Part shown: in pieces, positions 11,215-57,280 of the stretch
Layout: the number at the start of each line of letters is the position of its first letter
Position numbering within the stretch: position 1 is the first letter of the stretch
NCBI RefSeq assembly: GCF_000374165.1
Contig: NZ_KB893719.1
Span: forward strand, 193-64,192
DNA length: 64,000 nucleotides
Source: Parafrankia elaeagni
GTDB lineage: Bacteria > Actinomycetota > Actinomycetes > Frankiales > Frankiaceae
Reading direction: 5' to 3'
The notes under the pieces: generated by a model
What the model was told of the DNA's origin: nothing
The model's database searches: none
The model's input: the letters and a program-made list of their open reading frames with translations, nothing else
Translations under genes and position numbers: made by a program

Positions 11215-11388
11215 CCCTCCCCGCCGGCGCCGCGCCGACGTGGCCGCTGGTCGCCCTGACAGCCCGCCGACCACCCGCCGACCACCCGCCGACTATCCGC
11301 CATTTTCCCGTTCCCCCGTCCACACGTGCGCGTCACCGGCGGTTAGCGCCCACCGGTAGCGTGGTGGCCGCCCAGTGGGAGGATGGCC

Positions 11389-13489: not shown

Positions 13490-14255
13490 CAATTCACCCA
13501 TGACCGATCCGACCGTGGCAGCGAACGAGGCAGCGAACGAGGCACCCCCCGCGGCAGCCGACGAGGCCCCCGGGGAGCCGGTGGTACAGGCGGTGCAGGC
13601 GGTCTGGTGTGACTACGGCGGGGTTCTCACCTCGCCGTTGCACGGCCTGTTCGGCCAGGTCGCGGCCGCCGCGGGCATCCCCGCGGACGAGTTCCTCGCC
13701 GCGATCCGGCGGGTCGCCGCCCCCTACGGGGGCGCCCTGATCGAGCCGCTCGAGCTGGGCCGGCTCACCCAGCGGGAGTGGGGCCTGCGGGTCACCGCGG
13801 AGCTGGCGCCGGGCTGGACGCCGCAGCTCGACCTGACCCGTTTCGGTGACCACTGGTACGCCGGACGGACCGCCAACACCGCGCTGTTCGAGCTGCTCGC
13901 CCAGGTGCGCGCCCGGGGCCTGCGGGTGGGGATGCTGACGAACAGCATCCGCGAGTGGGAGCCGCACCGCCGGGCGCTGGCACCGGACGTGCGCCCGTGG
14001 CCGTTCGAGGTGACGATCAACTCCTTCGAGGTGGCGCTGCGCAAGCCCGACCCGGAGATCTTCGCGCTGGCCGAGTCGACGTTCGGGGTGCCGCCGGCGG
14101 CGTGCCTGCTGATCGACGACGTGGCGGCGAACTGCGCCGCGGCCCGGGCCCGGGGCTGGCAGGTCATCGAGCACGCGGACCCGTCCCGCACCCTGCGGCT
14201 CGTCGAGCAGTGGACCGCCGCCGGCCACGGCCCAGGAATTCCCGCTGAAGAATAA
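13482..14255 (+). CDS. HAD-superfamily hydrolase
   Basis: A 257-residue protein with haloacid-dehalogenase motifs: WCDYGGVL (the nucleophile Asp in motif I), MLTNSI (motif II), RKPDPEIF (motif III Lys) and LLIDDVAANC (motif IV), close to phosphatases of subfamily IA. The family usually dephosphorylates small metabolites. GTG 13482 overlaps the upstream stop by eight bases; ATG 13500 is an alternative that would lose six residues. The first 35 residues repeat AANEAANEA and are probably disordered. Confidence 0.82.
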   Translation: MPDNSPMTDPTVAANEAANEAPPAAADEAPGEPVVQAVQAVWCDYGGVLTSPLHGLFGQVAAAAGIPADEFLAAIRRVAAPYGGALIEPLELGRLTQREWGLRVTAELAPGWTPQLDLTRFGDHWYAGRTANTALFELLAQVRARGLRVGMLTNSIREWEPHRRALAPDVRPWPFEVTINSFEVALRKPDPEIFALAESTFGVPPAACLLIDDVAANCAAARARGWQVIEHADPSRTLRLVEQWTAAGHGPGIPAEE

Positions 14256-14407: not shown

Positions 14408-16321
14408 GTGGTCGGTGTGTCGCAGTACACCCTGGGCGCGGGTCTCGTCCTGCCTGATGACCGTGGCCTGTACTCCCTTGTTCACGACCGGGCGCGGACC
14501 ACCCCGGAGCTGGTGGCCCTCAGCCGGCCGGTGGCGGCGGGCTGGGCGGACGTCACCTACCGCGATCTCGACGCCCATGTCCGCCAGGCGGCCGGTGGCC
14601 TGCTGCGGGCCGGCGTCGAGGCCGGTGACCGGGTCGGCCTGCTGGGCCGGACCAGCTACGAGTGGGTGGTGGCCGACCTCGCGGTGCTCGCGGTCGGCGC
14701 GGTCACCGTCCCGATCTTCCCGACCGCGTCGTCGACGCAGATCGCCCACATCGTCACCGACTCGGGGATGCGGTGGTGCTTCGCCGAGACGCCGGAGCAC
14801 CTGGAGCTGGTGACCGCCGCCGCGGGCGGCGCCCTGCACACGGCCCCCTGGCCGCTGGCGGATCTCGACGGATGGGGCGCGGCGACCGGCGGCGACCCGG
14901 CCGGCACAGCGGAGTTCACCCGGCGGCGCGACGCCGTCCGCGCCGGTTCGCTGGCGACGATCGTCTACACCAGTGGGACGACCGGCATGCCGAAGGGCTG
15001 CATGCTCACCCACGGCAACCTGTTCGCCTCCAGCGCCAACACCGTCGAGCACACCGGCGACCTGTTCCGCCTGGCGGGTGACGGCGGCGGGCAGGCGTCG
15101 ACGCTGCTGTGCCTGCCGCTGGCGCACGTCTTCGGGCGGACGATCCTGGTCGCCTGCCTCTATGCCGGCACGCGGACCGGGCTGCTGCCCGCCGTGACCG
15201 AACTGCTGCCCGCCATGGCGACCTTCCGGCCGTCGGCGCTGGCGCTGGTCCCCTACGGCCTGGAGAAGATCCGCAAGGGGCTGCGCCGGGCGATCGACAC
15301 CGACACCGAGCTGGCGGCGGTGGCCACCGGCCTGGCCGCGGCGACGGCGACGGCCGCGGCGGCCGGTGACGACACCGGCGGCGGCGCCGAGGGGAACGGC
15401 GACGGCTCTCCGGGACGCCCCACCAGCCGGCCGGACCCGGCGGCCCTGGCTCGGGCCAGCACGGTCTTCGGCGGGCGGCTCACCCATGTGATCAGCGGCG
15501 GCGCGTCGCTGGACACCACCACCGCGGCCTACTACCGCGGGCTCGGCGTGGAGATCCTCAACTGCTACGGGCTGACCGAGGCGGCGACCGCCGTGACGGT
15601 CAACCAGCCCGCGACGAACCGCCCGGGCACCGTCGGCCAGCCCATCCCGGGAACGACGGTCGCGATCGCCGACGACGGCGAGGTGCTGGTCGCCGGGCCC
15701 AACGTCTCCCCCGGCTACTGGCGTGCCGGCCAGGACCCGTCCGAGGTCGCCGCCGCCGGCGATCCGGGCTGGCTGCACACCGGTGACCTGGGCCGGCTCG
15801 ACGCCGACGGCTTCCTGGTCATCACCGGCCGGCGCAAGGAGATCCTGGTGACCAGCGGCGGCAAGAACGTCACGCCGACGCTGCTGGAGGACCGGCTGCG
15901 GCTGCATCCCCTGGTCGCCGACGCCATGGTCATCGGCGAGGCCCGCCCGTACGTCGCCGCGCTCTTCACCCTCGAGCCGGCCGTGCTGCGCACTCTGGCC
16001 GACACCGCTGGCATCGATCTGGACGCCGACGGCTGGTGGGAACACCCCGGCCTGCTGGACCGGCTGCGCGAAGCGGTGGACGACGCCAACGGCCTCGTCT
16101 CCCGCGCCGAGTCGATCCGGCGGATCCGGGTGCTGCCCGGCCAGTTCACCATCGACGCCGGCCATCTCACGCCCTCGATGAAGCTGCGCCGCGCGCAGAT
16201 CGAGGCCGCCTTCGCCGCCGAGATCGAGGAACTCTACGCGGCGGCTCCCCCGGCCCCGCCGGCGGCGGCGTCCGTGCCGGCCACCGTGCCCGCGGCCGCG
16301 GCCGCCTCGACACCCGCCTGA
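14408..16321 (+). CDS. Long-chain fatty-acid-CoA ligase (FadD15-like)
   Basis: A 637-residue AMP-binding enzyme of the long-chain acyl-CoA synthetase type. The ATP motif is YTSGTTGMPKGCMLTH (about residue 190), with LPLAHVFGR, YGLTEA, HTGDLGRLD and GRRKEILVTSGGKNV later. It would activate a free fatty acid with CoA at the inner membrane side and could provide starter or recycled acyl chains to the downstream synthase. A low-complexity stretch around residues 310-345 (Ala, Gly, Asp rich) interrupts the fold and the C terminus is Ala/Pro-rich. GTG 14408 and GTG 14417 are both possible starts. Confidence 0.88.
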   Translation: MVGVSQYTLGAGLVLPDDRGLYSLVHDRARTTPELVALSRPVAAGWADVTYRDLDAHVRQAAGGLLRAGVEAGDRVGLLGRTSYEWVVADLAVLAVGAVTVPIFPTASSTQIAHIVTDSGMRWCFAETPEHLELVTAAAGGALHTAPWPLADLDGWGAATGGDPAGTAEFTRRRDAVRAGSLATIVYTSGTTGMPKGCMLTHGNLFASSANTVEHTGDLFRLAGDGGGQASTLLCLPLAHVFGRTILVACLYAGTRTGLLPAVTELLPAMATFRPSALALVPYGLEKIRKGLRRAIDTDTELAAVATGLAAATATAAAAGDDTGGGAEGNGDGSPGRPTSRPDPAALARASTVFGGRLTHVISGGASLDTTTAAYYRGLGVEILNCYGLTEAATAVTVNQPATNRPGTVGQPIPGTTVAIADDGEVLVAGPNVSPGYWRAGQDPSEVAAAGDPGWLHTGDLGRLDADGFLVITGRRKEILVTSGGKNVTPTLLEDRLRLHPLVADAMVIGEARPYVAALFTLEPAVLRTLADTAGIDLDADGWWEHPGLLDRLREAVDDANGLVSRAESIRRIRVLPGQFTIDAGHLTPSMKLRRAQIEAAFAAEIEELYAAAPPAPPAAASVPATVPAAAAASTPA

Positions 16322-16382
16322 CCCCCTCACCCGCTCCGCCCGAACTCTCCTCCACCCGCCTGTCCGACGGGAGCTCCCAAAG

Positions 16383-17618
16383 ATGTACGACGTCATCGTG
16401 GTCGGTGCGCGCTGCGCCGGATCGCCCCTCGCCATGCTGCTGGCCCGCCAGGGCCACCGGGTCCTGGTCGTGGACCGCGCCACCTTCCCCAGCGACACCG
16501 TCTCGACCCACTACATGCACCAGACCGGGCTGGCCCGGCTGCGGGACTGGGGGCTGCTGGACCGCCTGGTCGCCACCGGCGTCCCGCCGATCCGCCACCT
16601 GACGTTCTCCTACACCGGCATCTTCCTGGAGGGCTTCGCCGACCCGATCGAGGGTATCGACGCCGTCTACTGCCCGCGGCGGACCGTGCTGGACAACCTG
16701 CTCGTCGACGCGGCCCGCGAGGCCGGCGCCGAGGTCGTCGAGGGCTTCACCGTCACCGACCTGCTGTTCGACGACGGCCGGGTGGCCGGGATCCGCGGCC
16801 GCGTCGGCGAGGGCCCCGAGCAGGAGTTCCGCGCCGGGTTCGTGGTCGGCGCGGACGGGCGGACGTCCACCGTGGCGGACAAGGTCGGCGCGGACTTCTA
16901 CAAGGTGGTGCCCGCCGCCGGCTTCATCTACTACTCGTACTACGACGGCCTGGACTGGCCGATGCACCACCGGACGGGCTTCGGCGAGCAGCAGTTCGGC
17001 ACCTGGCCGACGAACGGCGGGCAGCACATGCTGTCGATCATCCGCCCGCGCTCGGCGTTCAGCGAGTTCCGCGCGGACGTCGAGGGCAGCTTCCACGCCA
17101 TCTTCGACAACGTCCTGCCCGAGCTGGGCGAGGACCTGCGGGCCCGCGGCCGGCGCGCGGAGGAGTTCCGGCCCATGCGGTACCCGGACAACTACTACCG
17201 GCGCTCGAGCGGGCCGGGCTGGGCACTGGTCGGCGACGCCGGCTACCACAAGGACCCCTTCACCGGCTGGGGCATCACCGACGCCTTCAACCAGGCGCAG
17301 CTGCTCGCCGACCGGCTGCTCGCGGCACTGGCCGGCGAGCGGACGCTGGACGACGCGGCGGCCGAGTACGTCAAGGTCCGCGACGAGGAGAGCCACGGCA
17401 CGTTCCAGCTGACCTGCACCCTCGCGCACCTCGTCCTGCCGCCGTTCCTGGACTCGGTCTTCCGGGCCACCGCGGAAAGCCCGCGATACACGAAGAGGTT
17501 CTTCGCCATGATCGCCGGCGGCATCCCCGGCCACGACTTCTTCCACCCCGACAACCTCGCCGAGCTCTACGAGGAGGTCGGCACGCCCGCCGAGAAGCGC
17601 CTGCTGTCGGCCGGCTGA
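16383..17618 (+). CDS. FAD-dependent oxidoreductase, geranylgeranyl-reductase-like
   Basis: A 411-residue flavoprotein with the N-terminal FAD motif DVIVVGARCAGSPLAMLLA, VVGADGRTSTVADKVGA in the middle and the second FAD motif LVGDAGYHKDPFTGWGI. Relatives reduce isoprenoid double bonds or hydroxylate aromatic or lipid substrates. In this operon it could saturate or oxidise an acyl chain. GGGAGC lies about ten bases before the ATG. It is only distantly similar to the flavoprotein at 2680. Confidence 0.83.
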   Translation: MYDVIVVGARCAGSPLAMLLARQGHRVLVVDRATFPSDTVSTHYMHQTGLARLRDWGLLDRLVATGVPPIRHLTFSYTGIFLEGFADPIEGIDAVYCPRRTVLDNLLVDAAREAGAEVVEGFTVTDLLFDDGRVAGIRGRVGEGPEQEFRAGFVVGADGRTSTVADKVGADFYKVVPAAGFIYYSYYDGLDWPMHHRTGFGEQQFGTWPTNGGQHMLSIIRPRSAFSEFRADVEGSFHAIFDNVLPELGEDLRARGRRAEEFRPMRYPDNYYRRSSGPGWALVGDAGYHKDPFTGWGITDAFNQAQLLADRLLAALAGERTLDDAAAEYVKVRDEESHGTFQLTCTLAHLVLPPFLDSVFRATAESPRYTKRFFAMIAGGIPGHDFFHPDNLAELYEEVGTPAEKRLLSAG

Positions 17619-17656
17619 GCCGACGGACCGAGGACAGAGGGATCGGAGGCAGGCTG

Positions 17657-18910
17657 ATGAGTACCGATGTCGGCGAGCTCGCCCGGCGCACCCGGGCCTT
17701 CGTCCAGGAGCAGGTCCTGCCGGTCGAGCGGGAGCTGGTCGTGGCGGGTCGGCACATGGACGACGACGTCCGGGTCGACCTCCAGCGCGCCGCCCGCGAG
17801 GCCGGGGTGTTCGGGCCGCTCACCCCGGTCGAGCTCGGCGGGCTCGGCCTGGACAACGCCGGCCTCGCCGAGGTGCTGGAGGCCGCCGGGACGAGCCTCA
17901 TCGGCCCCACCGCCGTCAACTGCGCGGCGCCCGACGACGGCAACATGCACCTGCTCGCCGCCGCGTGCACCCGGGAGCAGGCCGAGCGCTACCTGCACCC
18001 GCTGCTGCGCGGCGAGACCCGCTCGGCCATCGCGCTCACCGAGCCGGCGCCGGGCGCCGGCTCGGACCCGTCGATGGTCCGCACCGCCGCCGCCCGTGTC
18101 TCCGGCGGCTGGGTGATCGACGGGGCGAAGCACTTCATCACCGGCGCCGAGGGTGCCGCGTTCACGATCTGCATCGCGCGGACCGAGGACGGCGGCATCA
18201 CGATGTTCCTCGTCGACCAGGACAACCCGGGCCTGCGGGTCGGGCGCCGGATGCCCACCCTGGACCACAGCGCGGCCGGCGGGCACTGCGAGGTGGCCTT
18301 CGCCGACTGCTTCGTGCCGGACGAGGCGGTGCTCGGCGACGTCGGCGCCGGTCTGCGGTACGCCCAGGTCCGCCTGGCGCCGTCACGGCTGGCGTTCTGC
18401 ATGAGCTGGCTCGGCCTGGCCGCCCGGGCGCACGAGATGGCCGCCGCCCACATCACCGGCCGGTCCTCGTTCGGCCAGCCGATCTCCGAGCACGGGATGG
18501 CGCAGGCCCACGTCGCCGACAACGAGATCGACATCGCCGCCGCGCGGGCGCTCGTACGGTCGGTCGCGCGGGTGCTCGACACCGACGGCCTGGCGAGCTC
18601 CACCGCCCGCCACGGCGCGGCGATCGCGAAGACGTTCGTCGCCGAGGCGGTGTGGCGGGTGCTCGACCGGGTCGTCCAGCTCTACGGCGGGCTCGGGATC
18701 TGCGAGGACCACCTGGTCGCCCGCTTCCTCGTCGAGGCCCGCGGGTTCCGCATCTACGAGGGCTCGTCCGAGGTCCTGCGCGCCTCGATCGCGCGCCGGG
18801 TGCTGCGGGCGCACACCGCGCCCACCCCCGTGCCTGCCCCCGTGCCTGCCACCCCCGTCGCCGCCGCCCCGGCGCCCGCCGCCCCCACGCCCGTCCTGGA
18901 GAGCAGATGA
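17657..18910 (+). CDS. Acyl-CoA dehydrogenase
   Basis: A 417-residue flavoenzyme with ALTEPAPGAGSDPSM (FAD/substrate loop, about residue 130), WVIDGAKHFITGA, LYGGLGICEDH and RIYEGSSEVLR near the end, where the family catalytic Glu is usually found. It introduces an alpha-beta double bond into an acyl-CoA (or acyl-ACP in some biosynthetic clusters). A clear GGAGG precedes the ATG. The last 35 residues are a Pro/Ala/Val-rich tail absent from typical family members. The stop overlaps the next start in ATGA. Confidence 0.9.
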   Translation: MSTDVGELARRTRAFVQEQVLPVERELVVAGRHMDDDVRVDLQRAAREAGVFGPLTPVELGGLGLDNAGLAEVLEAAGTSLIGPTAVNCAAPDDGNMHLLAAACTREQAERYLHPLLRGETRSAIALTEPAPGAGSDPSMVRTAAARVSGGWVIDGAKHFITGAEGAAFTICIARTEDGGITMFLVDQDNPGLRVGRRMPTLDHSAAGGHCEVAFADCFVPDEAVLGDVGAGLRYAQVRLAPSRLAFCMSWLGLAARAHEMAAAHITGRSSFGQPISEHGMAQAHVADNEIDIAAARALVRSVARVLDTDGLASSTARHGAAIAKTFVAEAVWRVLDRVVQLYGGLGICEDHLVARFLVEARGFRIYEGSSEVLRASIARRVLRAHTAPTPVPAPVPATPVAAAPAPAAPTPVLESR

Positions 18911-19491
18911 CATCGACGTCCGCACCAGCCACGCCGCCGCGCCAGGCCGGCGCCCAGCCGGCCGACCCGGGCGGGACCGGTCGCGGCGCGGCCGGGCCGT
19001 TCGCGATCTTCGACCAGGCGACGGCCGACACGTCCGCACCGGACTTCGACCGGATCCGGGAGATCGCCAACGCGATCGTGCCGTTCCGGCGGTTCGTCGG
19101 CATCGACATCACCGAGATCGACGCCGAGCGTTCCGTCGTGGAGATACCGGACCGGGCCGACCTGACCAACCAGCTCGGCACCGTCCACGCCGGCGCGCTG
19201 TTCCTCGCCGCCGACCTCGCCGGGGCCGCGGCGGTGGCGGGCGCGCTCGCGGCACGGCTGAGCCGGTTCGAGAGCCTCGTCGTCCGCGACGCACGCTCGG
19301 CGTTCCGCCGGCCGGCCCGCGGCCGGATCCGCGCGGTGGGCCTGGTGGACGAGCGGGAGACCCGCCGCGTCCTCGCCGGCACCGGGCCGGAGCGGTTCGA
19401 TCTCGACGTGCGCGCCGTGCTGTACGACGACGCGGACGTCGTGGTGGCCCGGTTCCACTTCGACTACGCCTGCGCGATCGCCGGGGACTGA
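18907..19491 (+). CDS. Hotdog-fold thioesterase (DUF4442-like)
   Basis: A 194-residue protein whose last 140 residues form a hotdog domain: FVGIDITEIDAER, TNQLGTVHAGALFLAADLAG and the final beta strands. The Asn-Gln-Leu-Gly-x-x-His-Ala-Gly pattern is that of DUF4442/YiiD-like thioesterase relatives. The first 30 residues are Pro/Gly-rich. It could remove mis-primed or finished acyl groups from the synthase. The ATG overlaps the dehydrogenase stop. Confidence 0.78.
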   Translation: MTSTSAPATPPRQAGAQPADPGGTGRGAAGPFAIFDQATADTSAPDFDRIREIANAIVPFRRFVGIDITEIDAERSVVEIPDRADLTNQLGTVHAGALFLAADLAGAAAVAGALAARLSRFESLVVRDARSAFRRPARGRIRAVGLVDERETRRVLAGTGPERFDLDVRAVLYDDADVVVARFHFDYACAIAGD

Positions 19492-19493
19492 CC

Positions 19494-20417
19494 ATGGCCA
19501 CGACCGAGTCGACGAAGGCCGCCACGGGCCGTGTGCCCACCGAGAAGGTGCCGGTGCCGGTCGGCGACGGCATCACCCTGATGCTGCGGATCATGGCCCA
19601 GGAGGACCGGACGTCCCCCGTCGTCGCGCTGCTGCCGGCGATGGCGCTGAAGGCGAAGTTCTACTTCCCGCTGGCGACGGCGCTGCACGGCGCCGGGCTG
19701 TCGGTGGTGCTGTGCGACCAGCGCGGCCACGGCGACAGCACCCCCGGTCTGCGGGAGCAGCCGAACTTCGGCTACCGCGAGCTGATCGAGGTGGACGTCC
19801 CGGCCGTGGTCGCCACGATCCGGGCCCGGTTCCCCGACGCGCCGCTGTACCTGTTCGGGCACAGCCTCGGCGGCCAGCTGGCGCTGTTCCACGCGGCGTC
19901 CGAGCCGGGGAGCGTCGCCGGCGTCCTGACCATCGGCACCGGTACGCCCTACTGGCGGGCGTTCGCGCGCCGGGACTGGTTCGAGGCGTTCTGGAAGATC
20001 CAGACGATCGGTCTGGTCGCCCGGGTGCGCGGCTTCTGGCCCGGCGGCATGCTCATCGGCGGGGCGATGTCCGGCCAGGTCATGGTCGACTGGGCCCGCC
20101 AGTCGCGGACGAGTCGGTGCCGGCCGCGCGGCTCCGCCCGCCGGCACGACGACGCGCTGCGCACGCTGGGCCTGCCCGTCCTCGCGATCTCGCTGGACGA
20201 CGACCGGCTCGGCCCGGCCTCGAATGTCGACTTCCTGTGCTCCCGGATGCCCGCCGCACAGCTCACCCGCTGGCATGTCGTGGAGTCCTCCGGCGTCGAG
20301 AACCGGGACCACTTCGCCTGGGTCAAGGACAGCGCGGTGATCGGGCGCGCCGCCGCGACCTGGATCACCAGTGGCCGGCTGCCCGCCGGCACGGACTCCC
20401 ACGGGGGCGGACGATGA
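19494..20417 (+). CDS. Alpha/beta hydrolase
   Basis: A 307-residue hydrolase. VVALLPAMALKAKFYFP holds the oxyanion region, DQRGHGDS follows, and LFGHSLGGQLALF carries the nucleophilic Ser (about residue 124); the catalytic Asp is probably in SLDDDRLG and the His in NRDHFAWV. No signal peptide is seen, so it acts in the cytoplasm, perhaps as an ester or thioester hydrolase. A separate short hydrophilic patch (RQSRTSRCRPRGSARRHDD) sits where the lid would be. Two bases separate it from the gene before and it overlaps the next. Confidence 0.82.
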   Translation: MATTESTKAATGRVPTEKVPVPVGDGITLMLRIMAQEDRTSPVVALLPAMALKAKFYFPLATALHGAGLSVVLCDQRGHGDSTPGLREQPNFGYRELIEVDVPAVVATIRARFPDAPLYLFGHSLGGQLALFHAASEPGSVAGVLTIGTGTPYWRAFARRDWFEAFWKIQTIGLVARVRGFWPGGMLIGGAMSGQVMVDWARQSRTSRCRPRGSARRHDDALRTLGLPVLAISLDDDRLGPASNVDFLCSRMPAAQLTRWHVVESSGVENRDHFAWVKDSAVIGRAAATWITSGRLPAGTDSHGGGR

Positions 20418-21064
20418 CCCGCGCACGGCTGGTCGTCCTCGGCGACAGCTTCGCCGAGGGCCGCGGCGACCCGCGGCCCGACGGCTCGTACGGCGGCTGG
20501 GTGCCGCGTTTCGCCGACCTGTTCGCGATCCCGCCCGGCGGCTACCGCAACCTCGGCACCCACCAGGCCACCACCGGGCACATCCTCGACCGGCAGGTGC
20601 CGGCCGCCCTGGTCAACAAGGCCACCATGATCGGCTTCATCGGCGGTGTGAACGACCTGATCAGCGACTACGACCCGGGCCGCTTCGCGCACAACCTGCG
20701 GGCGATCCTGCGTCGCCTCGCCGGCCCGGACACCGTCCTGTTCACCGCGACCTACCCGGACATCCCCGGGAACCTGGATCTCCCGGCGCCGTTCCGGGCG
20801 CTGCTGCGCGACCGTTTCGCCCGCGCGAACGAGGACCTGACCCGGGCCGCCGCGGCGGCCGGCGCGCTGTGCCTCGACATCGGGGCGGCGACCGAGTGGC
20901 ACGGCCCGACGCTGTGGGACGCCGACGGTCTGCACCCGAACCCGCGGGGCCACCACCACTTCGCCGAGACCATGGCCGACTTCGTGGGCCTGCACACCGG
21001 CATGGTTCCGGTCGGCCGCGAGCCCGCGGGCGTCGGCGCCGGGGTCGGGCTCCTGTCCTACTGA
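20414..21064 (+). CDS. SGNH/GDSL-type hydrolase
   Basis: A 216-residue esterase-type protein with block I VVLGDSFAEG (Ser near residue 12), block III GGVNDLI and block V DGLHPNPRGHHHF containing Asp and His of the triad. No signal peptide, so it probably acts on an intracellular acyl ester or thioester. Start overlaps the preceding stop as ATGA. Between it and the megasynthase lies a 49-base gap with a duplicated ctactgacgtcc. Confidence 0.85.
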   Translation: MTRARLVVLGDSFAEGRGDPRPDGSYGGWVPRFADLFAIPPGGYRNLGTHQATTGHILDRQVPAALVNKATMIGFIGGVNDLISDYDPGRFAHNLRAILRRLAGPDTVLFTATYPDIPGNLDLPAPFRALLRDRFARANEDLTRAAAAAGALCLDIGAATEWHGPTLWDADGLHPNPRGHHHFAETMADFVGLHTGMVPVGREPAGVGAGVGLLSY

Positions 21065-21113
21065 CGTCCCGTCCTACTGACGTCCTGTCCCACCTGTTGA
21101 GGAAAGGGCCATC

Positions 21114-28112: not shown

Positions 28113-30361
28113 CGCTGGCCGACGACACCCTCCGGTTCGACGAGACCTTCCACGCCGACGAGACCCTCGAGTTCGACGGCGAGCCGTTCGACCCCCTCCG
28201 TCTGACGGCGGCGGGCAGCAGCGCGCCGGTGGGCACAGACCTGGTCCCCACCGGCGGGGCGGTGCCGCCGGCGGTCCCGAGCCCTGGCCCGTCCGGCGGA
28301 AGCCGGGCCGACGCGCAGATCGCCGCCGTGGTCAGGGAGGTCAGCGCTGCCGTGGCCGCGGCGCACGACTCCGCGCTGGTCGCGCAGCTCGCGCTGAGCC
28401 GCCTCACCCTCGCCGGTCCGTCCCGTTCCCTCGGGGCTGGGCTTCCGGCGCCTGACCGGCTCCCGGTGCCTGAGCGACGTCCAACGACATCGCCGGCCCT
28501 GGACGCAGGGCCGACGGGGCCCGCGACGGCGGCTCCGCAGGAGACCAGCCCTCGGATCACGGAGGCGTCCTTCAAGCCGCTGGCGCGCACGTCGCGGGAC
28601 GCGCTGGACGCGGCCGGCCTGGCCGCGCTGAGCCGCGGCGAGGTGGCGGCCGTCTTCGGGGCGCCCTACGAGCAGCACGGCGTCAACCCGGACGTCACGC
28701 TGACGGAGCCCGGCGCACCGATGCTCCTCGGCTGGGTCGCGGACCTGCGCCTGCGGGGCGGCGCCCGGAGCGCCGGCTCCCTGCGCGCCGGGCTGCTGCC
28801 CCTGGGTGACGGGCTGGCCCGCGGGCTGCTGGCTGCGGCGGGGCAGGCGGTGCGGGTGTTCGCGCTGTACGCCGGGCTGCACCTGTGCCTGGCGGACGCG
28901 CGCTTCGCCCCCGAGGCCCCCGCCGAGGATCCGGACGGCCGTCCGCGCACCGGCCCGGCCCACCCCGCCGCGGCGGTGCGCCTCACCGACGCGGGGCGGG
29001 GCTGGGACGGCGCGGGCGCCGAGATCCGGCTCGAGGTCGACACGATCGATCTCCTGCCGCGGCCGTGGCTCGCCGCCCGCGTGCTGGTGCACGCGGGCGG
29101 GCGGCTCGTCGCCGAGCTCGACGACGTCGCCGTCACCGTCCGGGAGCGGCCCGGCGCGCCGGTCGGGCCCGAGCAGGGCGGGGCGGTACCGGCCGATCTC
29201 GGCCGTCGCAACGCCGCCGGGGAGCGGGCCCTGCTCAGCGAGTTCCACATGGCGCACTGCGCCCGCGGCGACCAGGGTGTCGGGCTCGGCCCGGAGTTCG
29301 GCGGCTACCGCGGCCGCCGCGCCACCCGGCTGCCCGGCGGCGGGCTGCGGCTCGTCGACCGGATCATGGCGACGGACTCCCGCCGTGGCGACCTGCGCGG
29401 CGGGGCCACGCACGTCACCGAGTACGACGCGGCGGCGGACAGCTGGTACTTCGCCGACACGGCGAACGCCTCCATGCCCAACTGCGTGTACATGGAGACG
29501 TCCCTGCAGTCGGCGCTGCTGCTCGGCTACTACCTCGGGGCCACCGTGGCCGAGCCGGCCGAGGACTACAGCCTGCGCAACCTCGGCGGCAGCGCCACGG
29601 TGCTGCGTGAGGTGGAGCTGCGCGACGCGACCATCCGCCAGCACTCGACACTGCTGTCGACGAACCCGATGCCCGGGACGGCGCTGCAGGACTTCTCCTA
29701 CGAGATGGCGGTCGACGGCGAGCCGTTCTACCGCGGCGAGTCGATGTTCGGGTACTTCAACGCCCCGGCCCTGGCCCGCCAGACCGGACTGGACGGCGGC
29801 CGGCTCGTCCCGACCTGGCTGGACGCCCTCGACGAGCGGGAGCGGCCGGCGATCCGCACGATCGACGTGGCCGCGCGGCGCGCGGACCCGGCCGCGCCGC
29901 TGTGCGCGCGGGGCCAGCTGGCGCTGCTCGACGACGTCGAGGTGGTCGACGGTGGCGGCCGGCACGGGCGCGGCTACCTGCGCGCGCAGCGGCCGATCGA
30001 CCCCGGGGACTGGTTCTTCGCCCGGCACTTCCACCTGGACCCGGTGATCCCCGGCTCGCTCGGGGTGGAGGCCGTGATCCAGGCCCTGCAGGAGTGGGCC
30101 GTCGACGCCGGGCACGCGGACGGGATGGCGCGGCCCGGGTTCGTCCTGCCCGTCGGCGTGACCCTGCACTGGAAGTACCGCGGCCAGCTGCTCCCCACGG
30201 ACGGGACGTTCACCCTGGAGGTGCACATTTCCGATGTCAGCCGCCGGCCCGGCCGGGTCCGTGTCACCGCCGACGCGAGCCTGTGGAAGCCGACGATGCG
30301 CATCTACGAGCTGACCGACATCGCCATCGAGCTGCGCGACGAGGGCGCGCCGTCATGGTGA
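28109..30361 (+). CDS. pfaC-like: PfaC-like FabA-type dehydratase subunit lacking KS-CLF
   Basis: A 750-residue protein matching only the dehydratase half of PfaC. After a disordered Pro/Ala-rich leader (about 40-150) come a hotdog segment beginning VAAVFGAPYEQHG, a dehydratase segment with SWYFADTANASMPNCVYMET, and a C-terminal FabA-like domain with RHFHLDPVIPGSLGVEA (His and Asp region) that looks active; the middle one lacks the corresponding His. It should dehydrate and isomerise beta-hydroxyacyl-ACP, setting the cis double bonds of a polyene chain. Standard PfaC has KS and chain-length-factor domains in front, and these are missing both here and elsewhere in the window. ATGA overlap with the synthase; overlaps the next gene by seven bases. 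Confidence 0.88.
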   Translation: MTLADDTLRFDETFHADETLEFDGEPFDPLRLTAAGSSAPVGTDLVPTGGAVPPAVPSPGPSGGSRADAQIAAVVREVSAAVAAAHDSALVAQLALSRLTLAGPSRSLGAGLPAPDRLPVPERRPTTSPALDAGPTGPATAAPQETSPRITEASFKPLARTSRDALDAAGLAALSRGEVAAVFGAPYEQHGVNPDVTLTEPGAPMLLGWVADLRLRGGARSAGSLRAGLLPLGDGLARGLLAAAGQAVRVFALYAGLHLCLADARFAPEAPAEDPDGRPRTGPAHPAAAVRLTDAGRGWDGAGAEIRLEVDTIDLLPRPWLAARVLVHAGGRLVAELDDVAVTVRERPGAPVGPEQGGAVPADLGRRNAAGERALLSEFHMAHCARGDQGVGLGPEFGGYRGRRATRLPGGGLRLVDRIMATDSRRGDLRGGATHVTEYDAAADSWYFADTANASMPNCVYMETSLQSALLLGYYLGATVAEPAEDYSLRNLGGSATVLREVELRDATIRQHSTLLSTNPMPGTALQDFSYEMAVDGEPFYRGESMFGYFNAPALARQTGLDGGRLVPTWLDALDERERPAIRTIDVAARRADPAAPLCARGQLALLDDVEVVDGGGRHGRGYLRAQRPIDPGDWFFARHFHLDPVIPGSLGVEAVIQALQEWAVDAGHADGMARPGFVLPVGVTLHWKYRGQLLPTDGTFTLEVHISDVSRRPGRVRVTADASLWKPTMRIYELTDIAIELRDEGAPSW

Positions 30362-32055
30362 GCGCGACCGCGCTGCCGGCGCAGGTGCCGGCAGCCCCGT
30401 CGGCACAGGTGCCGGCTCCGGTGCTCGCACGTGCGCCGCGGGACGTCCACGAGGTGCTCGCCGACCTGGACCGGCCCGTCTACGTCGTGCGTGACGCGGC
30501 CGGGATCGCGCTCACCGGCGACGAGCGGGCCGCCGCCGCGGCCGGTCAGGTGCTGGCCGCCGCCGGGCCGCTGCCGCCGCGGCGGCTGGGCTCCCCCGCC
30601 TTCCGCCGCGACCACGGGGTGGACCAGGCGTACATGGCCGGGTCGATGGCGAACGGCATCGCCTCGGCCGACCTGGTCGTCAACCTGGCCCGGGCGGGCT
30701 ACCTCGCCTCCTTCGGCGCGGCCGGGGTCGTCGCCGCGCGGGTGGACGAGGCGCTCGCCGACATCCGGCGGCGGGTCGGCGGACGCCGGTTCGCCTGCAA
30801 CCTGATCCACAGCCCGAACGAGGCCGCGATGGAGCGGGACGTCGTCGACGCCTGCCTGCGCCACCAGGTGCGCTGCATCGAGGCCTCCGCCTTCCTCGAC
30901 CTGACCCCGCAGGTGGTGCGCTACCGGCTCGCCGGCCTGCGCCGGGGCCCGGACGGGCGGGTCGTCGCGGACAACCGCGTCGTCGCCAAGGTGTCGCGGA
31001 CGGAGGTCGCCGACCTGTTCCTGCGGCCGGCGCCGGCCGCGCTGGTCCGTGGGCTGGTCGAGCAGGGGCTGGTCAGCGCCGAGCAGGCCGCGCTCGCCGC
31101 CACGGTGCCGCTCGCGGACGATGTGACCGCCGAGGCGGACTCCGGTGGCCACACCGACCGCCGGCCGCTGCCCGTCCTGCTCCCCGAACTGCTCGCGCTG
31201 CGGGACGCCCGGCGCGCCGAGACCGGCGGCTGGCCCGTCCGGGTCGGGGCCGCCGGCGGACTGGGCACCCCCCGGGCTGTCGCCGCCGCGTTCGCCCTCG
31301 GTGCGGACTACGTCGTGACCGGCTCGGTCAACCAGGCGGCGGTCGAGGCGGCGCAGTCGCCGGCCACCAAGCGCCTGCTGGCCGCCGCCGGCGTCACCGA
31401 CTGCGCCCAGGCCCCGTCCGCGGACATGTTCGAGATCGGCGCGGAGGTGCAGGTCCTGAGCCGGGGCACCATGTTCGCCTCGAAGGCCCGCCGGCTCTAC
31501 GACCTCTACCACCGGCACGACAGCCTGGACGCCATCCCCGCCGAGGAGCGCGCCGCACTCGAACGGCGGATCTTCCACCGGCCGCTCGACGACGTCTGGG
31601 CGGAGACGGTCGCCTACTTCACGACCCGCGACCCCGACCAGATCGAGCGGGCGCGGGATGACCCGAAGCGGCGGATGGCACTGGTGTTCCGCTGGTACCT
31701 CGGCCTGTCGTCGGGGTGGAGCATCACCGGCACGCCGGACCGCGTCGCCGACTACCAGGTCTGGTGCGGGCCGGCGATGGGAGCGTTCAACTCCTGGGTG
31801 CGCTCCAGCGCGCTGGAACCGCTGGAGAACCGGCACGCCGCCGCGATCGCCACCGAGCTGATGCACGGCGCCGCGTTCACGTCCCGGGTGGCGGTGCTGG
31901 CGCAGGCCGGCGTCCGGCTGCCCGCCACGGCCACCACCTACCTGCCGCGCGCCCACCCCCGCCCGGGCCACGCCCCCGGCAACGGCGCCGGCCCCGCCGA
32001 CCCCGCCGACCCCGGCCCCGGCCCCGGCCCCGCAGAACAGGGACAACGGACATGA
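30355..32055 (+). CDS. pfaD-like: PfaD-like enoyl reductase (nitronate-monooxygenase fold)
   Basis: A 566-residue FMN-dependent enoyl reductase. [19 protein letters not shown], the FMN/phosphate motif [34 protein letters not shown] and [13 protein letters not shown] are PfaD signatures. It reduces selected double bonds during chain extension, so together with the dehydratases it sets the degree of unsaturation. ATG 30355 overlaps the preceding gene; GTG 30358 is an alternative. The final 40 residues are a Pro/Gly-rich tail. Its stop overlaps the carboxyltransferase start. Confidence 0.93.
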
Positions 32056-33878
32056 CTGCACCCGTACTCCAGCCCCAGCCCGAGGTGGACGTGGCCGGCG
32101 GGACACCCGCCTGGCTCGTCTGCGACGGCTGCCGACGGATGATCTACGGGCGGCGCTTCGTCCGCGGCGGCCATGTCTGCCCCGAATGCGGCTGGCACGC
32201 CCGGCTGACCGCCGCCCAGCGGGTCGACCTGCTGCTCGACGAGGGCTCCGCCGAGATCGTCGCCACCCCGGTCACCGCGGCCGACCCGCTGGGCTTCGTC
32301 GACACCCGGCCCTACGCCGACCGGCTGCGCGCCGCCCGCGCCTCGACCGGCATGCCCGAGGCGGTCCTGGTCGCCCGCGGCACCATCGAGGGTTGCCCCG
32401 TCGTGACCGCGGTGATGGACTTCCGCTTCCTCGGCGGCAGCCTCGGCGCCGCCGTCGGCGAGGCCATCACCGGCGCGTGCGAGATCGCCCTGCGGGAGCG
32501 CACCCCGCTGCTGCTGGTGACCGCCTCCGGCGGCGCGCGGATGCAGGAGGGGGCGCTGTCCCTGATGCAGATGGCCAAGACCGCGCAGGCCATCGGCCAG
32601 CTCGACGAGGCCGGCATCCTCACCGTCTCGCTGATCACCGACCCGACGTTCGGCGGGGTCGCCGCCTCGTTCGCGACGCTGACCGACGTCATCGTCGCCG
32701 AGCCCGGTGCCCGGCTCGGCTTCGCCGGCGCCCGGGTGATCGAGCAGACCATCCGCGAGACCCTGCCGCCCGGCTTCCAGACCGCCGAGTTCCTGCTGGA
32801 GCACGGTGTCGTCGACCTGATCAGCCCACGGCCGGCGCTGCGCCCGACGCTCGCGCGGCTGCTCGGCGTCGCCACCCGGCGCCCGACGTCCGCACCCGCC
32901 AGCACGGTGCACGACGCCGCGCCCGGCCGGGAGGTCGTGCGGGAGCCTGAGCATCTGGTGCAGCGGCACCCCTGGGAGGCCGTGCGGCTCGCCCGCCGAC
33001 TCGGCCGGCCCAGCGCGCTGGACTACATCGGGGCGCTGGTCGAGGACTGGACCGAGCTGCACGGCGACCGGGCCGCCGCCGACTGCCCGGCCATGGTCGC
33101 CGGCCTCGGCCGTCTCGACGGGACGCCGGTCGTCGTCATCGGAACGCAGAAGGGCCACACGGCGGCCGAGCTGTCCGCCCGCGCCTACGGGATGCCCTCC
33201 CCCGGCGGCTACCGCAAGGCGGCCCGGGTGATGCGGCTGGCCGCGAAGCTGGGCCTGCCGGTCATCACCCTGATCGACACCGCCGGGGCGCACCCCGGCA
33301 TCGAGGCCGAGGAGAACGGCCAGGCCGTCGCCATCGCGCAGAACCTGCGCCTGATGGCCGGGCTGCCGGTACCCGTCGTCGCGGTGGTCACCGGCGAGGG
33401 CGGCAGCGGCGGCGCGCTCGCCCTCGCGGTCGCCGACCGGGTGCTGATGTGCGCGAACGCGATCTACTCGGTGATCAGCCCCGAGGGCTGCGCCGCCATC
33501 CTGTGGAAGGACCCGGCGGCCGGCCCCGACGCGGCCGCCGCGCTGCGGGTCGACGCCCGCGCCCTGCTGACGGCCGGCATCGTCGACGGGGTGATCCCCG
33601 AGCCCGACGGCGGCGCGGACGTCGACCCGCTCGGCGCCGCCGACGCGCTGCGGGCCGCGCTCACCAGCACGCTCGCGGAGCTCGTCCCCCTCGACCCGCC
33701 GACGCTCGTCTCGGGCCGCCGGGCCCGCTTCCGCCGCTTCGGCACCCCCACCACTCCCACCCCCGCTACCCCAATCACCGCGCCACCAGCCACCGCCCCC
33801 AGCGTCCCGGCGGCACGCCCGCCGATGGGTGGACACCGCTCCACCGCCGATCTCGACGAGGCGAGGCGATCCTCTTGA
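32052..33878 (+). CDS. accDA: Acetyl-CoA carboxylase carboxyltransferase, fused beta-alpha subunits (AccD-AccA)
   Basis: A 608-residue protein carrying the whole carboxyltransferase. Residues 24-45 form the AccD zinc ribbon (CDGC ... CPEC), followed by the beta core with [11 protein letters not shown] and [10 protein letters not shown]; from about 300 the alpha half begins, with [34 protein letters not shown] and [14 protein letters not shown]. It transfers CO2 from carboxybiotin to acetyl-CoA, making malonyl-CoA. Co-transcription with accB, accC and the Pfa genes indicates a dedicated malonyl-CoA supply. Bacterial-type heteromeric carboxylases are unusual for actinobacteria, which mostly use acyl-CoA carboxylases with a fused BC-BCCP subunit. 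The C terminus has a Thr/Pro-rich tail. Confidence 0.93.
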
Positions 33879-34570
33879 CCATCACCACCGCCAACGGCAC
33901 CTCCACGACACCGGCCCCCACACCCGCCGCACCCACCACCCCCAAGCCCACACCCGCAGGCCAGAACGGCGAGCACGGGCAGAGCGGACTCGGCGAGGTG
34001 CTGGCCGTCCTGCGCCTCGCCGCGCAGGAGGCGGGCGCCGGCGGGGCACGACCCGTGAGCCGGGTCCGGGTGTCCGCCGGCGACCTCGCCGTGGAGATCG
34101 ACTGGACGACGCCGGACGGATCCGCCGGGCCAGGCGGGTCCGCGCCGGCCGCGGCCGACCGCCGGGACGTCTCCCCGCACGGCGCCGCGCGCCCACCCGC
34201 CGCGTTCCCGTCGGCACCGGCCTCGCTGCCCGCCGTGCCCGGAGCCACGGGACCGACGACGGCAGTAGCAGCAGGGTCGGCGGCGCACGACGGCTCCGAC
34301 GACGCGCTCGCGTTCGTCGTCCCGGCGCACACCGTCGGCGTCTTCTACCACGCCCCCGAGCCGGGCGCGGACCCGTTCGTCCGGGCCGGTGACACCGTCG
34401 TCCCCGGCCAGCAGGTCGGGATCATCGAGGCGATGAAGCTGATGATCCCGGTCGAGGCGGAGCGCGGCGGCCGGGTCCGCGAGATCCTCGTCGCCGACGC
34501 CTCCCCGGTGGAATACGGCCAGCCCCTACTCACCCTGGACGTCGACGTGCCGCACGGCGACAGCCGATGA
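33875..34570 (+). CDS. accB: Biotin carboxyl carrier protein
   Basis: A 231-residue carrier whose last 80 residues form the biotinyl domain with EAMKLMIPV, Lys188 being the biotinylated residue. The N-terminal part has [15 protein letters not shown], a helix seen in bacterial AccB, and a long Ala/Pro-rich flexible arm between them. The most likely start is TTG 33875, overlapping the accDA stop as TTGA; the first later ATG lies deep in the biotin domain and would destroy it. Works with the neighbouring biotin carboxylase and fused carboxyltransferase. Confidence 0.92.
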
Positions 34571-35913
34571 TCAAGAAGGTTCTGATCGCCAACCGCGGCG
34601 AGATCGCGCTGCGGATCGCCCGCAGCTGCCGCGAGCTGGGCATCGCCACCGTGGCCGCGTACTCCACGGCCGACCGTGACAGCGCCGTCGTCGCGTTCGC
34701 CGACGAGTCCGTCCAGATCGGCCCGGGCCCGTCGCGGGAGAGCTATCTGAACATGCCGGCGGTCGTCGAGGCCGCGCGCATCCGCGGGGCCGACGCCATC
34801 CACCCCGGGTACGGGTTCCTGTCCGAGAACCCCGACTTCGCCGAGATCTGCGCGGCCGAGGACCTGACGTTCATCGGCCCGCCACCGGATGTCATGGCCC
34901 GCCTCGGCGACAAGGCCGTCGCCCGCCGGATCATGGCCGAGGCCGGGCTGCCGCTGCTGCCCGGCAGCCGCGGCACCGCCGACCAGCCCGAGGCGGCGGC
35001 CGTGACCGCGGCCGAGATCGGCTACCCGGTCATCATCAAGGCCGCGGCCGGCGGCGGCGGGCGCGGCATGAGCGTCGTGCACGACCCCGACGCCTTCGAC
35101 CGCGCCTACCGGCACACCCGCGCGACCGCCCAGGCGGTGTTCGGCGACGGACGTCTCTACGTCGAGCGCTACCTCGCCTCCGCGCGCCACGTGGAGGTCC
35201 AGGTGCTGGCCGACGCGCACGGCACCGCCGTCCATCTCGGCGCCCGCGACTGCTCCCTGCAGCGGCGCCACCAGAAGCTGGTCGAGGAGACCCCCGCCCC
35301 CGGCCTGCCGCCCGAGATCGTCGAGCCGCTGTGCGCCGCCGCCGTGCGCGGCACCCTCGCCAGCGGGTACGTCGGCGCCGGGACCTTCGAGTTCCTCGTC
35401 GACCCGCAGGGCCGTTTCTACTTCATGGAGGTCAACTGCCGGCTGCAGGTGGAGCACCCCGTCACCGAGATGGTGACCGGCCTCGACCTGGTCGCCGAAC
35501 AGCTCCGGATCGCCGCCGGCGAGCCGCTCGGCTTCACCCAGGCGGACGTCGACGCCCGCGGCGTGTCGATCGAATGCCGCATCAACGCCGAGAACCCGCG
35601 CCGCGACTTCGCGCCCGCACCCGGCACCCTCACCGACTTCGCCGTCCCGGCCGGCCCGTTCGTTCGGGTCGACACCCACGCCGCCCCCGGCTACCGCATT
35701 CCCGCCTACTACGACTCGCTGCTGGCGAAGGTCGTCGTCTGGGCCCCGGACCGCCCCCGCGCCCTGGCCCGGATGCGCCGTGCCCTCGACGAGCTGCGCG
35801 CCGAAGGCCCCGGCGTCGTCACCACCACCGAGTTCCTCCGCGGCCTCCTCGACCACCCCCGCTTCGTCGCCGCCGAACACGACACCGTCCTGATCGAGAA
35901 CCTCATGTCCTGA
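34567..35913 (+). CDS. accC: Acetyl-CoA carboxylase biotin carboxylase subunit
   Basis: A 448-residue ATP-grasp enzyme with KKVLIANRGEIALRI at the start, IHPGYGFLSEN, the Gly-rich loop KAAAGGGGRGM, RDCSLQRRHQKLVEE and EVNCRLQVEHPVTE. It carboxylates the biotin on AccB with bicarbonate and ATP. Length equals that of stand-alone AccC, with no fused BCCP. Start overlaps the accB stop as ATGA. Last enzyme of the malonyl-CoA module. Confidence 0.96.
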   Translation: MIKKVLIANRGEIALRIARSCRELGIATVAAYSTADRDSAVVAFADESVQIGPGPSRESYLNMPAVVEAARIRGADAIHPGYGFLSENPDFAEICAAEDLTFIGPPPDVMARLGDKAVARRIMAEAGLPLLPGSRGTADQPEAAAVTAAEIGYPVIIKAAAGGGGRGMSVVHDPDAFDRAYRHTRATAQAVFGDGRLYVERYLASARHVEVQVLADAHGTAVHLGARDCSLQRRHQKLVEETPAPGLPPEIVEPLCAAAVRGTLASGYVGAGTFEFLVDPQGRFYFMEVNCRLQVEHPVTEMVTGLDLVAEQLRIAAGEPLGFTQADVDARGVSIECRINAENPRRDFAPAPGTLTDFAVPAGPFVRVDTHAAPGYRIPAYYDSLLAKVVVWAPDRPRALARMRRALDELRAEGPGVVTTTEFLRGLLDHPRFVAAEHDTVLIENLMS

Positions 35914-35932
35914 CTCGTGCCAGACTGACGTC

Positions 35933-36292
35933 ATGCGCCAGGCATTCGTGCACGAGGCTCTCGTCGAGATGGCGTATGACAGTGACATCGGGGCGCCTGG
36001 CGCCGCGGTCACCGTGGCGCTGTGCGGGCACTGGGATCATCCCTCGCCGTCCTCGGCCGCCCCCCACCACACCGATGCCGTCCGTACGGAGCAGGGCGTG
36101 CGGCTGCGGATCCTCTTCGCCGCCGACCCCGACAACGAACATCCGGTCCGCCGCCGCGTCGAGGCCGCCCTGGCCGCGGGGCAGCTGCGCGGCGCGGACG
36201 GCACCCTCACCCACTGGCGGCTGTGTGCCAGCCGTTCCGACGCCCTCACCTTCTCCGAGCTCGACCACGGCGAGCGACTCACCCGCAGCTGA
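35933..36292 (+). CDS. Small conserved-looking protein of unknown function
   Basis: A 119-residue protein beginning MRQAFVHEALVEMAYDSD with GAAVTVALCGHWDHP, then a region LRILFAADPDNEHPVRRRVE and a helical end. I recall similar short proteins in actinobacteria but know no function. It follows accC by 19 bases and may be the last gene of the lipid operon. A clearly related but degenerate copy of its second half lies at about 38560-38700. No transmembrane segment or signal peptide. Confidence 0.6.
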   Translation: MRQAFVHEALVEMAYDSDIGAPGAAVTVALCGHWDHPSPSSAAPHHTDAVRTEQGVRLRILFAADPDNEHPVRRRVEAALAAGQLRGADGTLTHWRLCASRSDALTFSELDHGERLTRS

Positions 36293-36333
36293 CCTCGCGC
36301 GCCGGACGCGGCCGGCCGTCATCGAGGAGACCC

Positions 36334-36371
36334 CCGCCCCCGGCTGTCATCAGCGGGACGGCCGGGGGCGG
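36334..36371 (+). terminator. Strong GC hairpin after the lipid operon
   Basis: ccgcccccggc (36334-36344) and gccgggggcgg (36361-36371) form a perfect 11-bp stem with a 16-base loop, 42 bases past the stop of the 119-residue gene. It is well placed to end the 22-kb operon. No T-run. Confidence 0.6.
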
Positions 36372-53624: not shown

Positions 53625-53711
53625 GGATCAGGAGTCGCGGATCGGATCAGGAGTCGCGGATCGGGTCAGGAGTCGCGGATCGGGTCAGGAGTCGCGGATC
53701 GGGTCAGGAGT
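53625..53711. repeat. 19-bp tandem repeat between the two permease genes
   Basis: Four full copies (53625-53643, 53644-53662, 53663-53681, 53682-53700) and an 11-base partial copy of ggatcaggagtcgcggatc; copies 3 and 4 begin ggg. Read on the coding strand, each unit includes ctcctgaccc, which is the end of the upstream permease gene with its TGA stop, so the array seems to have grown out of that gene's 3' end. Confidence 0.95.

Positions 53712-56125: not shown

Positions 56126-57280
<1,155 letters not shown>

Follow-up and report, generated by a model that had tools for sequence, protein, structure and literature searches.

A widely shared Pfa-like lipid gene cluster of Parafrankia elaeagni with a linked acetyl-CoA carboxylase and, probably, a single-ketosynthase synthase

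Can a set of Pfa-like genes that lacks the ketosynthase-chain-length factor (KS-CLF) of polyunsaturated fatty acid (PUFA) synthases encode a working lipid synthase, and what would it make? The question is raised by a stretch of 64,000 nucleotides of Parafrankia elaeagni (Frankiaceae; contig NZ_KB893719.1, positions 193 to 64,192), hereafter the window, in which a first-pass annotation made from the sequence alone had described PfaA-, PfaC- and PfaD-like genes joined to a complete acetyl-CoA carboxylase (ACC). We find that this cluster is a variant of the known bacterial lipid factories, that it is widely shared, and that it is larger than first stated. From its gene content we consider it rather probable that the core operon encodes an iterative Pfa-type lipid synthase with a single ketosynthase, its own malonyl-CoA supply and a less unsaturated, oxygenated product. 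If so, one ketosynthase and no chain-length factor are enough for a Pfa synthase, which would be relevant to the open question of how these enzymes fix the length and unsaturation of the chain. The cluster would further point to an undescribed class of lipids in the genera Frankia, Nocardia, Rhodococcus and Amycolatopsis, and would be a natural case of malonyl-CoA supply tied by gene content to a single synthase.

Scans with Pfam and NCBIfam show that 12 plus-strand genes form one operon at positions 14408-35913 of the window, in reading frames backed by third-position GC content. It begins with a FadD-like long-chain acyl-CoA synthetase (14408..16321; PF00501, PF23562), a FAD-dependent oxidoreductase of the monooxygenase/geranylgeranyl-reductase superfamily (16383..17618; PF01494, with TIGR02032 at 92.5 bits, below its cut-off of 158.8), and an acyl-CoA dehydrogenase (17657..18910; PF00441/PF02770/PF02771), an accessory gene that has a separate place in some relatives. 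There follow a thioesterase-like hotdog-fold protein of the DUF4442 family (18907..19491; PF14539, in the longer open reading frame [ORF] 17965-19491), for which the hotdog thioesterase models of NCBIfam score under their cut-offs, an alpha/beta hydrolase (19494..20417; PF12146, PF00561), and an SGNH/GDSL-like hydrolase that is a candidate acyl-release enzyme (20414..21064; a weak match to the GDSL lipase model NF045548, 25.4 bits for a cut-off of 300). The synthase genes are next: a PfaA-like protein of 2332 amino acids (aa; 21114..28112), a PfaC-tail-like protein of 750 aa with hotdog folds ending in a FabA-type dehydratase (28109..30361; PF07977, in the longer ORF 27746-30361), and a PfaD-like enoyl reductase (30355..32055, start inferred). 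The last three genes encode AccDA, in which the beta and alpha carboxyltransferase subunits are fused (32052..33878, start inferred; PF03255, PF01039), the biotin carboxyl carrier protein AccB (33875..34570, from an inferred TTG start; PF00364), whose EAMKLM motif we take to be the biotin site, and the biotin carboxylase AccC (34567..35913; PF00289, PF02786, PF02785). Stop and start overlap at seven junctions, with starts partly inferred (acyl-CoA dehydrogenase/hotdog protein, alpha/beta hydrolase/SGNH-like hydrolase, PfaA/dehydratase protein, dehydratase protein/PfaD, PfaD/AccDA, AccDA/AccB, AccB/AccC). The genes named in the first-pass annotation, their order on one strand and their overlaps are thus all present. 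Its two hydrolases are both there, one of them being the weakly matching SGNH-like protein, and its PfaC-like gene does match PfaC, in the dehydratase tail alone. It had extended the operon to 36292; we place the end at 35913 because neither Pfam nor NCBIfam assigns a family to the last ORF of that range (35933-36292, 119 aa) and because the homology with Parafrankia soli stops at 35898.

The synthase proteins carry the marks of their families. The PfaA-like protein, with the Pfam domain order ketosynthase (KS), acyltransferase (AT), two acyl carrier proteins (ACP), ketoreductase (KR) and dehydratase (DH), scores 1595 bits against TIGR02813, the model of PUFA-synthase PfaA subunits (cut-off 1010.1), and PfaD scores 626.7 bits against its PUFA-synthase model TIGR02814 (cut-off 449.25). 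This search of the Pfa families, proposed with the first-pass annotation, gave FabA matches for the dehydratase protein. The translation of PfaA contains Cys214, His349 and His390 in the KS, GHSFGE in the AT, LGVDSIKR in both ACPs, YAAAN in the KR and HxxxGxxxxP in the DH, motifs that we take to be the active sites. The tandem ACP repeats (24840-25449) are almost identical to each other, and they are two rather than the four to six of PUFA synthases. Two is also the commonest number of ACP motif hits among 39 PfaA ORFs (broken ORFs and the window included), which range from 0 to 5, with at least one hit in 36/39; the KS cysteine motif and the AT serine motif were each found in 35/39 of the same set.

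The 750-aa protein has no match to KS or CLF: PF07977 is its sole Pfam match, and only FabA models were matched in NCBIfam. An AlphaFold model of the 599 residues conserved among 38 sequences (mean pLDDT 92.5, pTM 0.91) shows, to judge from its secondary structure, three hotdog folds. The PDB matches listed by Foldseek are FabA-like dehydratases and large synthases that bear dehydratases, which are the best of them, together with product-template domains and a thioesterase; the large synthases are counted here as whole entries. The single PF07977 match and the hotdog-rich model are the evidence for a possible FabA-type dehydratase pair, the first unit of which is apparently without the catalytic histidine.

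KS-CLF, PfaB and phosphopantetheinyl transferase (PPTase) are all missing from the operon, and the statement that it is not a standard PUFA locus stands. Pfam scans of the operon genes found no separate AT that could be a PfaB (no genome-wide PfaB search was made), and no PPTase. The contig of 119,277 bases that carries the window has a sole KS match, so the complete KS-CLF just beside the window that had been named as a possible refutation is absent. The host genome is a 7.59 Mb draft of 135 contigs (98.08% complete, 5.46% contamination), and among named records Parafrankia colletiae Cc1.17 is nearest to it (94% over the best segment, 97% over the aligned dehydratase protein). Genome-wide, 34 KS matches were found, and no PfaC-type KS-CLF was recognised among the 30 loci inspected; the matches on contigs C49 (one KS, within a frame of 456 aa) and C123 (a contig-end fragment) were left unclassified. 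The KS domains closest to that of PfaA, on contigs C92 (365.5 bits) and C63 (333 bits), are part of a second Pfa-like locus treated below. Candidates for a separate KS-CLF were rejected on C65, where there is a type II-like KS pair, on C88, where a Pks2-like synthase has a weak KS-like neighbour, and on C2, where the KS stands alone and has Gln at the Cys site. The proposed genome-wide check for a separate KS-CLF and PPTase recognised none of the former among the loci inspected and returned one PPTase-family gene, on contig C103. The lone KS of C2 (C2:306370-306720; 7432-8907 of the extracted stretch L132), with its catalytic Cys replaced by Gln, has genes for an MFS exporter and an HpaB-like oxygenase in its vicinity.

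The cluster is more than a chance assembly. Searching named genomes by short conserved peptides, in a scan that was not exhaustive, we found 67 related loci: 19 in Frankiaceae, 47 in other Actinomycetota (Nocardia, Rhodococcus, Amycolatopsis, Actinokineospora, Pseudonocardia, Saccharopolyspora, Streptomyces, Thermocatellispora and Solirubrobacter) and one in a cyanobacterium. We take the genome labelled G010 to be that of Frankia alni ACN14a. The end of PfaA is visible in 54 loci, 13 being too short, and no KS match lies between PfaA and the dehydratase protein in 50/54; KS matches occur there in the other four (L107, L110, L112, L114). Where 9 kb or more of upstream sequence is available (39 CLF-less loci), the SGNH-like hydrolase is found in 38, the flavoprotein in 35 and the FadD-like gene in 21, the last count being lowered by flank length. 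Three of the four loci scored as flavoprotein-less (L052, L054, L081) were cut by the flank and have the gene in wider stretches. Among the CLF-less loci with at least 6.5 kb downstream (n = 45), PfaD is present in 37 and the ACC in 27. The possibility raised earlier that the cluster is unconserved in relatives is therefore not borne out.

In a tree of 38 dehydratase proteins, from 37 of the 67 loci and the window (one further locus was dropped for a stop), with a midpoint root only, a branch with support 100/99 divides the 34 CLF-less rows from the remaining four. Among these four is L118, a long branch left unscored for KS-CLF, and the tool gives a warning about such branches. Of the eight PfaD-less loci seven are sampled, and these lie on one side of a branch; the presence of the ACC switches several times along the tree. 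Frankiaceae rows are not one clade, which suggests that the cluster has been horizontally transferred. The eight PfaD-less loci are from Nocardia and Amycolatopsis (L056, L058, L063, L066, L071, L072, L077, L085), and five of them have a gene for a metallo-beta-lactamase-fold protein.

The linked ACC is the other distinctive element. Its domains mark a multi-subunit enzyme (PF03255, PF01039, PF00364 and PF00289/02786/02785, all above cut-offs), the zinc ribbon, PF17848, being slightly below (23.5 bits for 24.5). We compared 36 Frankiaceae genomes, of which 25 have the dehydratase gene of the cluster and are called carriers. A strong AccA match (>300 bits) is found in 24/25 carriers and 1/11 non-carriers (Fisher p 4.6e-7, uncorrected for kinship), the exceptions being G028 (~1310 contigs) and G016 (87% complete). 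Because the AccA-type carboxylase tracks the cluster in this family, the evidence favours a malonyl-CoA supply dedicated to the cluster over a housekeeping one, although five carriers have two AccA copies (G004, G007, G019, G022, G025) and 18/45 loci have no ACC. The earlier claim of a Pfa-like secondary-lipid synthase is supported, with a linked ACC that seems to be dedicated to it.

These genes can be placed in a putative pathway. AccDA-AccB-AccC would make malonyl-CoA locally, and the AT of PfaA would load it onto the two near-identical ACPs. The lone KS would condense, the KR would reduce, and dehydration would be left to the polyketide synthase (PKS)-type DH inside PfaA or to the FabA-type DH encoded separately; PfaD would act as enoyl reductase in every round or in some of them. 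With PfaD and dehydratases of both types, saturated and unsaturated rounds would alike be possible. The SGNH-like hydrolase would release the chain, the FadD-like enzyme would convert it to acyl-CoA, and the flavoprotein would oxidise it, perhaps together with a linked cytochrome P450 and ferredoxin reductase; a LysR gene upstream of the operon probably regulates the cluster. The expected product is a fatty acyl compound that is oxygenated, less unsaturated and possibly shorter. We infer the lower unsaturation and perhaps shorter chain from the part that KS-CLF plays at certain long steps of true PUFA synthases: according to a review, KS-A elongates short and long chains and KS-CLF a medium chain and C20, and disruption of CLF results in fewer PUFA (PMC9702510). 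The earlier proposal that a specialised polyene lipid is made is not supported in that form: PfaD is present in 37/45 CLF-less loci and nothing here shows double bonds in the product.

Several observations weigh against the pathway as drawn. The assembly is an unfinished one of 135 contigs, and other Pfa-like ketosynthases of the genome (C92, C63) could act in trans. The first dehydratase unit, which seems to have no FabA-type catalytic His, may be inactive, and may be so in KS-CLF-bearing relatives too. With the ACC missing from 18/45 loci and PfaD from 8/45, neither is required in every member, and no FadD-like or LysR match was seen beside the cluster of G014 (stretches L128, L142). The assignments of the flavoprotein and the SGNH-like hydrolase are at the superfamily level. 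In the open-licence literature we found no product, transcript or protein of the cluster; term searches of PMC11804610 (for Frankia) and of PMC4383371 (for PUFA, secondary lipid and hgl) returned nothing on it. The available part of the F. alni proteome paper lists the acetyl-CoA carboxylases FRAAL3158/3159 and the catalases KatA FRAAL3167 and KatB FRAAL3889 (PMC8951365). Expression of the cluster's ACC in nodules through FRAAL3158/3159 was considered and rejected, since the two catalases of G010, matched to KatA and KatB, place tag 3167 at ~3.439 Mb, ~20 kb before the first genes of the cluster; no catalase was found in stretch L130.

How does the operon compare with known systems? It resembles the pfaABCD synthases of omega-3 PUFA (Types A and B of Shulse and Allen) in its PfaA, PfaD, tandem ACPs, PKS-type DH within PfaA and FabA-type dehydratase protein. 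It differs from them in having neither KS-CLF nor PfaB nor a linked PPTase, and two ACPs instead of four to six, and it adds the ACC, the flavoprotein, the SGNH-like hydrolase, the FadD-like ligase and LysR. CLF or KS-CLF is also missing from the pfaBC loci of hybrids between PKS and nonribosomal peptide synthetases (a clade with Microcystis; Ottowia) described in the accessible text of PMC13291983, but those loci act beside PKS-NRPS genes, and none were met among the scanned genes of the operon. The heterocyst glycolipid synthases (hgl islands) are likewise Pfa-like and belong to nitrogen fixers that form differentiated cells; they differ in that the scanned genes here include no glycosyltransferase and that 48/67 relatives are outside Frankiaceae.

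Frankiaceae also have a second kind of Pfa-like locus, for which families were annotated in G002 only. There (L125, 199-18339), two proteins with the orders enoyl reductase (ER)-KS-AT-ACP-KR and KS-AT-DH are followed by a hydrolase, a macrolide-type glycosyltransferase and a methyltransferase, which makes it a candidate glycolipid cluster of the family. Pfam gave no CLF in the second protein, and no PPTase was matched at this locus. Two large adjacent frames of like kind occur in G011 and G014, the host genome has such frames at the contig ends of C92 and C63, and in G013 the frames that hold the matches (1371 and 1733 aa) fail the GC filter. All 12 Frankiaceae genomes searched contain a further PfaA-like match of at least 420 bits, below the TIGR02813 cut-off, and some contain several.

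Type M of Shulse and Allen groups Frankia with Actinosynnema, Renibacterium and S. avermitilis in the part of their paper at hand (PMC3098273), and fused pfaDA and pfaBC genes with a PPTase are said, in the accessible text of PMC13291983, to resemble Renibacterium closely. Because of this Renibacterium-like fusion and the grouping of Renibacterium with Frankia, Type M is probably, by its description, the second Frankiaceae locus. The window locus shares with Type M a Frankia host, a Pfa-like synthase and an undescribed product, but it is unlikely to be its representative: PfaA, the dehydratase protein and PfaD are separate here, and the second locus fits the fused layout better. Type Q (Rhodococcus erythropolis PR4) is a possible match, as Rhodococcus qingshengii has a CLF-less cluster (L082) that is its sole locus above the TIGR02813 cut-off; the comparison is made through this near relative rather than PR4 itself, and an ACC, present in the window, was not seen in any of the four Rhodococcus loci found.

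Could the operon then encode a genuine PUFA-type synthase that borrows its second ketosynthase, in trans, from the KS-AT-DH protein of the second locus? Further PfaA-like matches in all 12 Frankiaceae searched, and the two-frame locus in G002, G011, G014 and at the host contig ends, would make this feasible. Yet in R. qingshengii (L082, genome G098) the CLF-less cluster exists with a next-best TIGR02813 match of 274.8 bits, the further loci are found in carriers and non-carriers alike, and the KS-AT-DH protein of G002 has no CLF in Pfam; we hold this explanation to be improbable. A decayed, non-functional Pfa remnant beside an ordinary ACC would account for an operon without KS-CLF, PfaB and PPTase, but it is hard to reconcile with open frames, motifs in place, a CLF-less form common to many genera and an AccA-type subunit missing from 10/11 non-carrier Frankiaceae, and it strikes us as highly improbable.

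The remaining alternatives concern the product. That it is a lipid of the envelope of nitrogen-fixing vesicles, comparable to heterocyst glycolipids, is suggested by the Frankiaceae host and by the dehydratase gene being present in 22/26 nifH-positive and 3/10 nifH-negative genomes (Fisher p 0.003, uncorrected for kinship). Four nifH-positive genomes have no such gene, however (G006, G013, G016, G034), and the glycosyltransferase is in the second locus, not among the scanned genes of the cluster. The carrier genera outside Frankiaceae are not known to us as vesicle formers. With 48 of the 67 related loci found in other taxa, the main task of the cluster is unlikely to be in vesicles. The vesicle papers, in the portions available, speak of hopanoids (PMC12501873, PMC7308572, PMC4058466), terms for polyketides or glycolipids being absent from two of them, and we give the envelope lipid a very small chance. 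A released small polyketide or polyene, made for signalling or as an antibiotic and not as a structural lipid, would fit the P450s, the flavoprotein, the metallo-beta-lactamase-fold hydrolase, LysR and the patchy, partly non-vertical distribution, and the PfaD-less loci of Nocardia and Amycolatopsis could leave double bonds in place. Against it, membership of PfaA and PfaD in their families points to fatty acyl chains, and a role in acyl-CoA metabolism would suit the FadD-like ligase and the acyl-CoA dehydrogenase; we see it as unlikely.

The borders first drawn around the cluster were too narrow on both sides, since genes upstream and downstream of the operon recur in relatives. Upstream, on the plus strand, lie a cytochrome P450 (9964..11214, with the start inferred at ATG 9964 inside ORF 8986-11214; 653 bits to a P450 of G010, L130), whose translation contains what is presumably the haem-binding motif, and the LysR-type regulator (11383..12324; PF03466, PF00126). 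They are followed by a metallo-beta-lactamase-fold hydrolase (12608..13489; PF12706) and a HAD-family hydrolase (13482..14255; PF00702). LysR and the two hydrolases are syntenic in all four other Parafrankia stretches, which keep the order LysR, metallo-beta-lactamase-fold hydrolase, HAD hydrolase, FadD-like gene, flavoprotein, acyl-CoA dehydrogenase, hotdog protein, alpha/beta hydrolase, SGNH-like hydrolase and PfaA. The P450 precedes LysR in three of them (L137, L138, L140), and the fourth, L141, starts 227 bases before its LysR match. The Protofrankia stretch L139, which begins near the metallo-beta-lactamase-fold gene, has both hydrolases and most of the set, without the alpha/beta hydrolase. 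In G010 the order is P450, LysR, FadD-like gene, flavoprotein, SGNH-like hydrolase, PfaA, dehydratase protein, PfaD and ACC, then a ugp-like ABC set with a metallophosphoesterase, the alpha/beta hydrolase, hotdog protein and acyl-CoA dehydrogenase, a ferredoxin reductase and a P450. LysR is present in its stretch L129, where neither the metallo-beta-lactamase-fold nor the HAD gene was seen.

Downstream, on the minus strand, the window contains an ABC importer with a UgpE-like permease (52743..53603; PF00528, UgpE being the nearest NCBIfam model), a UgpA-like permease (53704..54654; PF00528), a UgpB-like solute-binding protein (54670..56094; PF13416) and a UgpC/MalK-like ATPase (56126..57493; PF00005, PF17912; UgpC 416.2 bits for a cut-off of 432). 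All four proteins are below the curated cut-offs of the UgpABCE sn-glycerol-3-phosphate importer, though the Ugp models are nearest, and only the UgpC-like protein of G010 passes (435.5 for 432). Beyond them on the same strand are a ferredoxin/NAD(P) reductase (57543..58562; PF00111, PF00175) and, as a less certain member, a second cytochrome P450 (60065..61666; PF00067), 59% identical to the P450 beside LysR in L129 of G010. Among the 67 related loci, a UgpE homologue (at least 300 bits) occurs in 22, from seven genera, a metallophosphoesterase in 16 and a ferredoxin reductase (at least 290 bits) in 13; these are raw counts, lowered by short contigs and set against no chance model. A UgpB homologue of at least 590 bits is found in 20/25 Frankiaceae carriers and 1/11 others, and within 30 kb on the same contig in 12/25. 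Against a link with the importer, the best UgpB is >110 kb away in G014, only a weaker paralogue is near in G024 and G027, none is found in G021, and UgpB is on separate contigs in several other carriers. As a tentative possibility, well short of an even chance, these genes would belong to a separate single-KS branch of Pfa synthases that makes, in many actinobacterial genera, a hydroxylated lipid from its own malonyl-CoA; the ugp-like importer, with the metallophosphoesterase in many members, would bring in a polar head-group precursor, and the supercluster would be a complete unit for one class of polar lipid.

Control of the cluster by phosphate gains no support from direct repeats like the PHO box, which match the window 8 times for 4.94 expected, with as many in 15/100 shuffles, under a consensus that we assume to be the correct one. 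The distance from the operon to the block of the F420-type LLM oxidoreductase and the ugp-like genes (first gene at 50217) is 14.3 kb in the window and 313 bases in P. soli L054. The segment missing there (35914-50217) includes a Na+/H+ exchanger, an M3 peptidase and an FG-GAP/GDSL protein. Between the oxidoreductase and the ugp-like genes, a FolC-like ligase (51307-52635) has no Pfam match at 1e-5. Within the longer segment, ~5 kb of lower GC content (38986-43976; 0.56-0.64 in 2-kb windows), with a gene for a DUF4062 protein (39931-41385), is absent from P. colletiae L052 and looks like an insertion; ~264 bases of L052 align at both of its junctions (73% and 87%).

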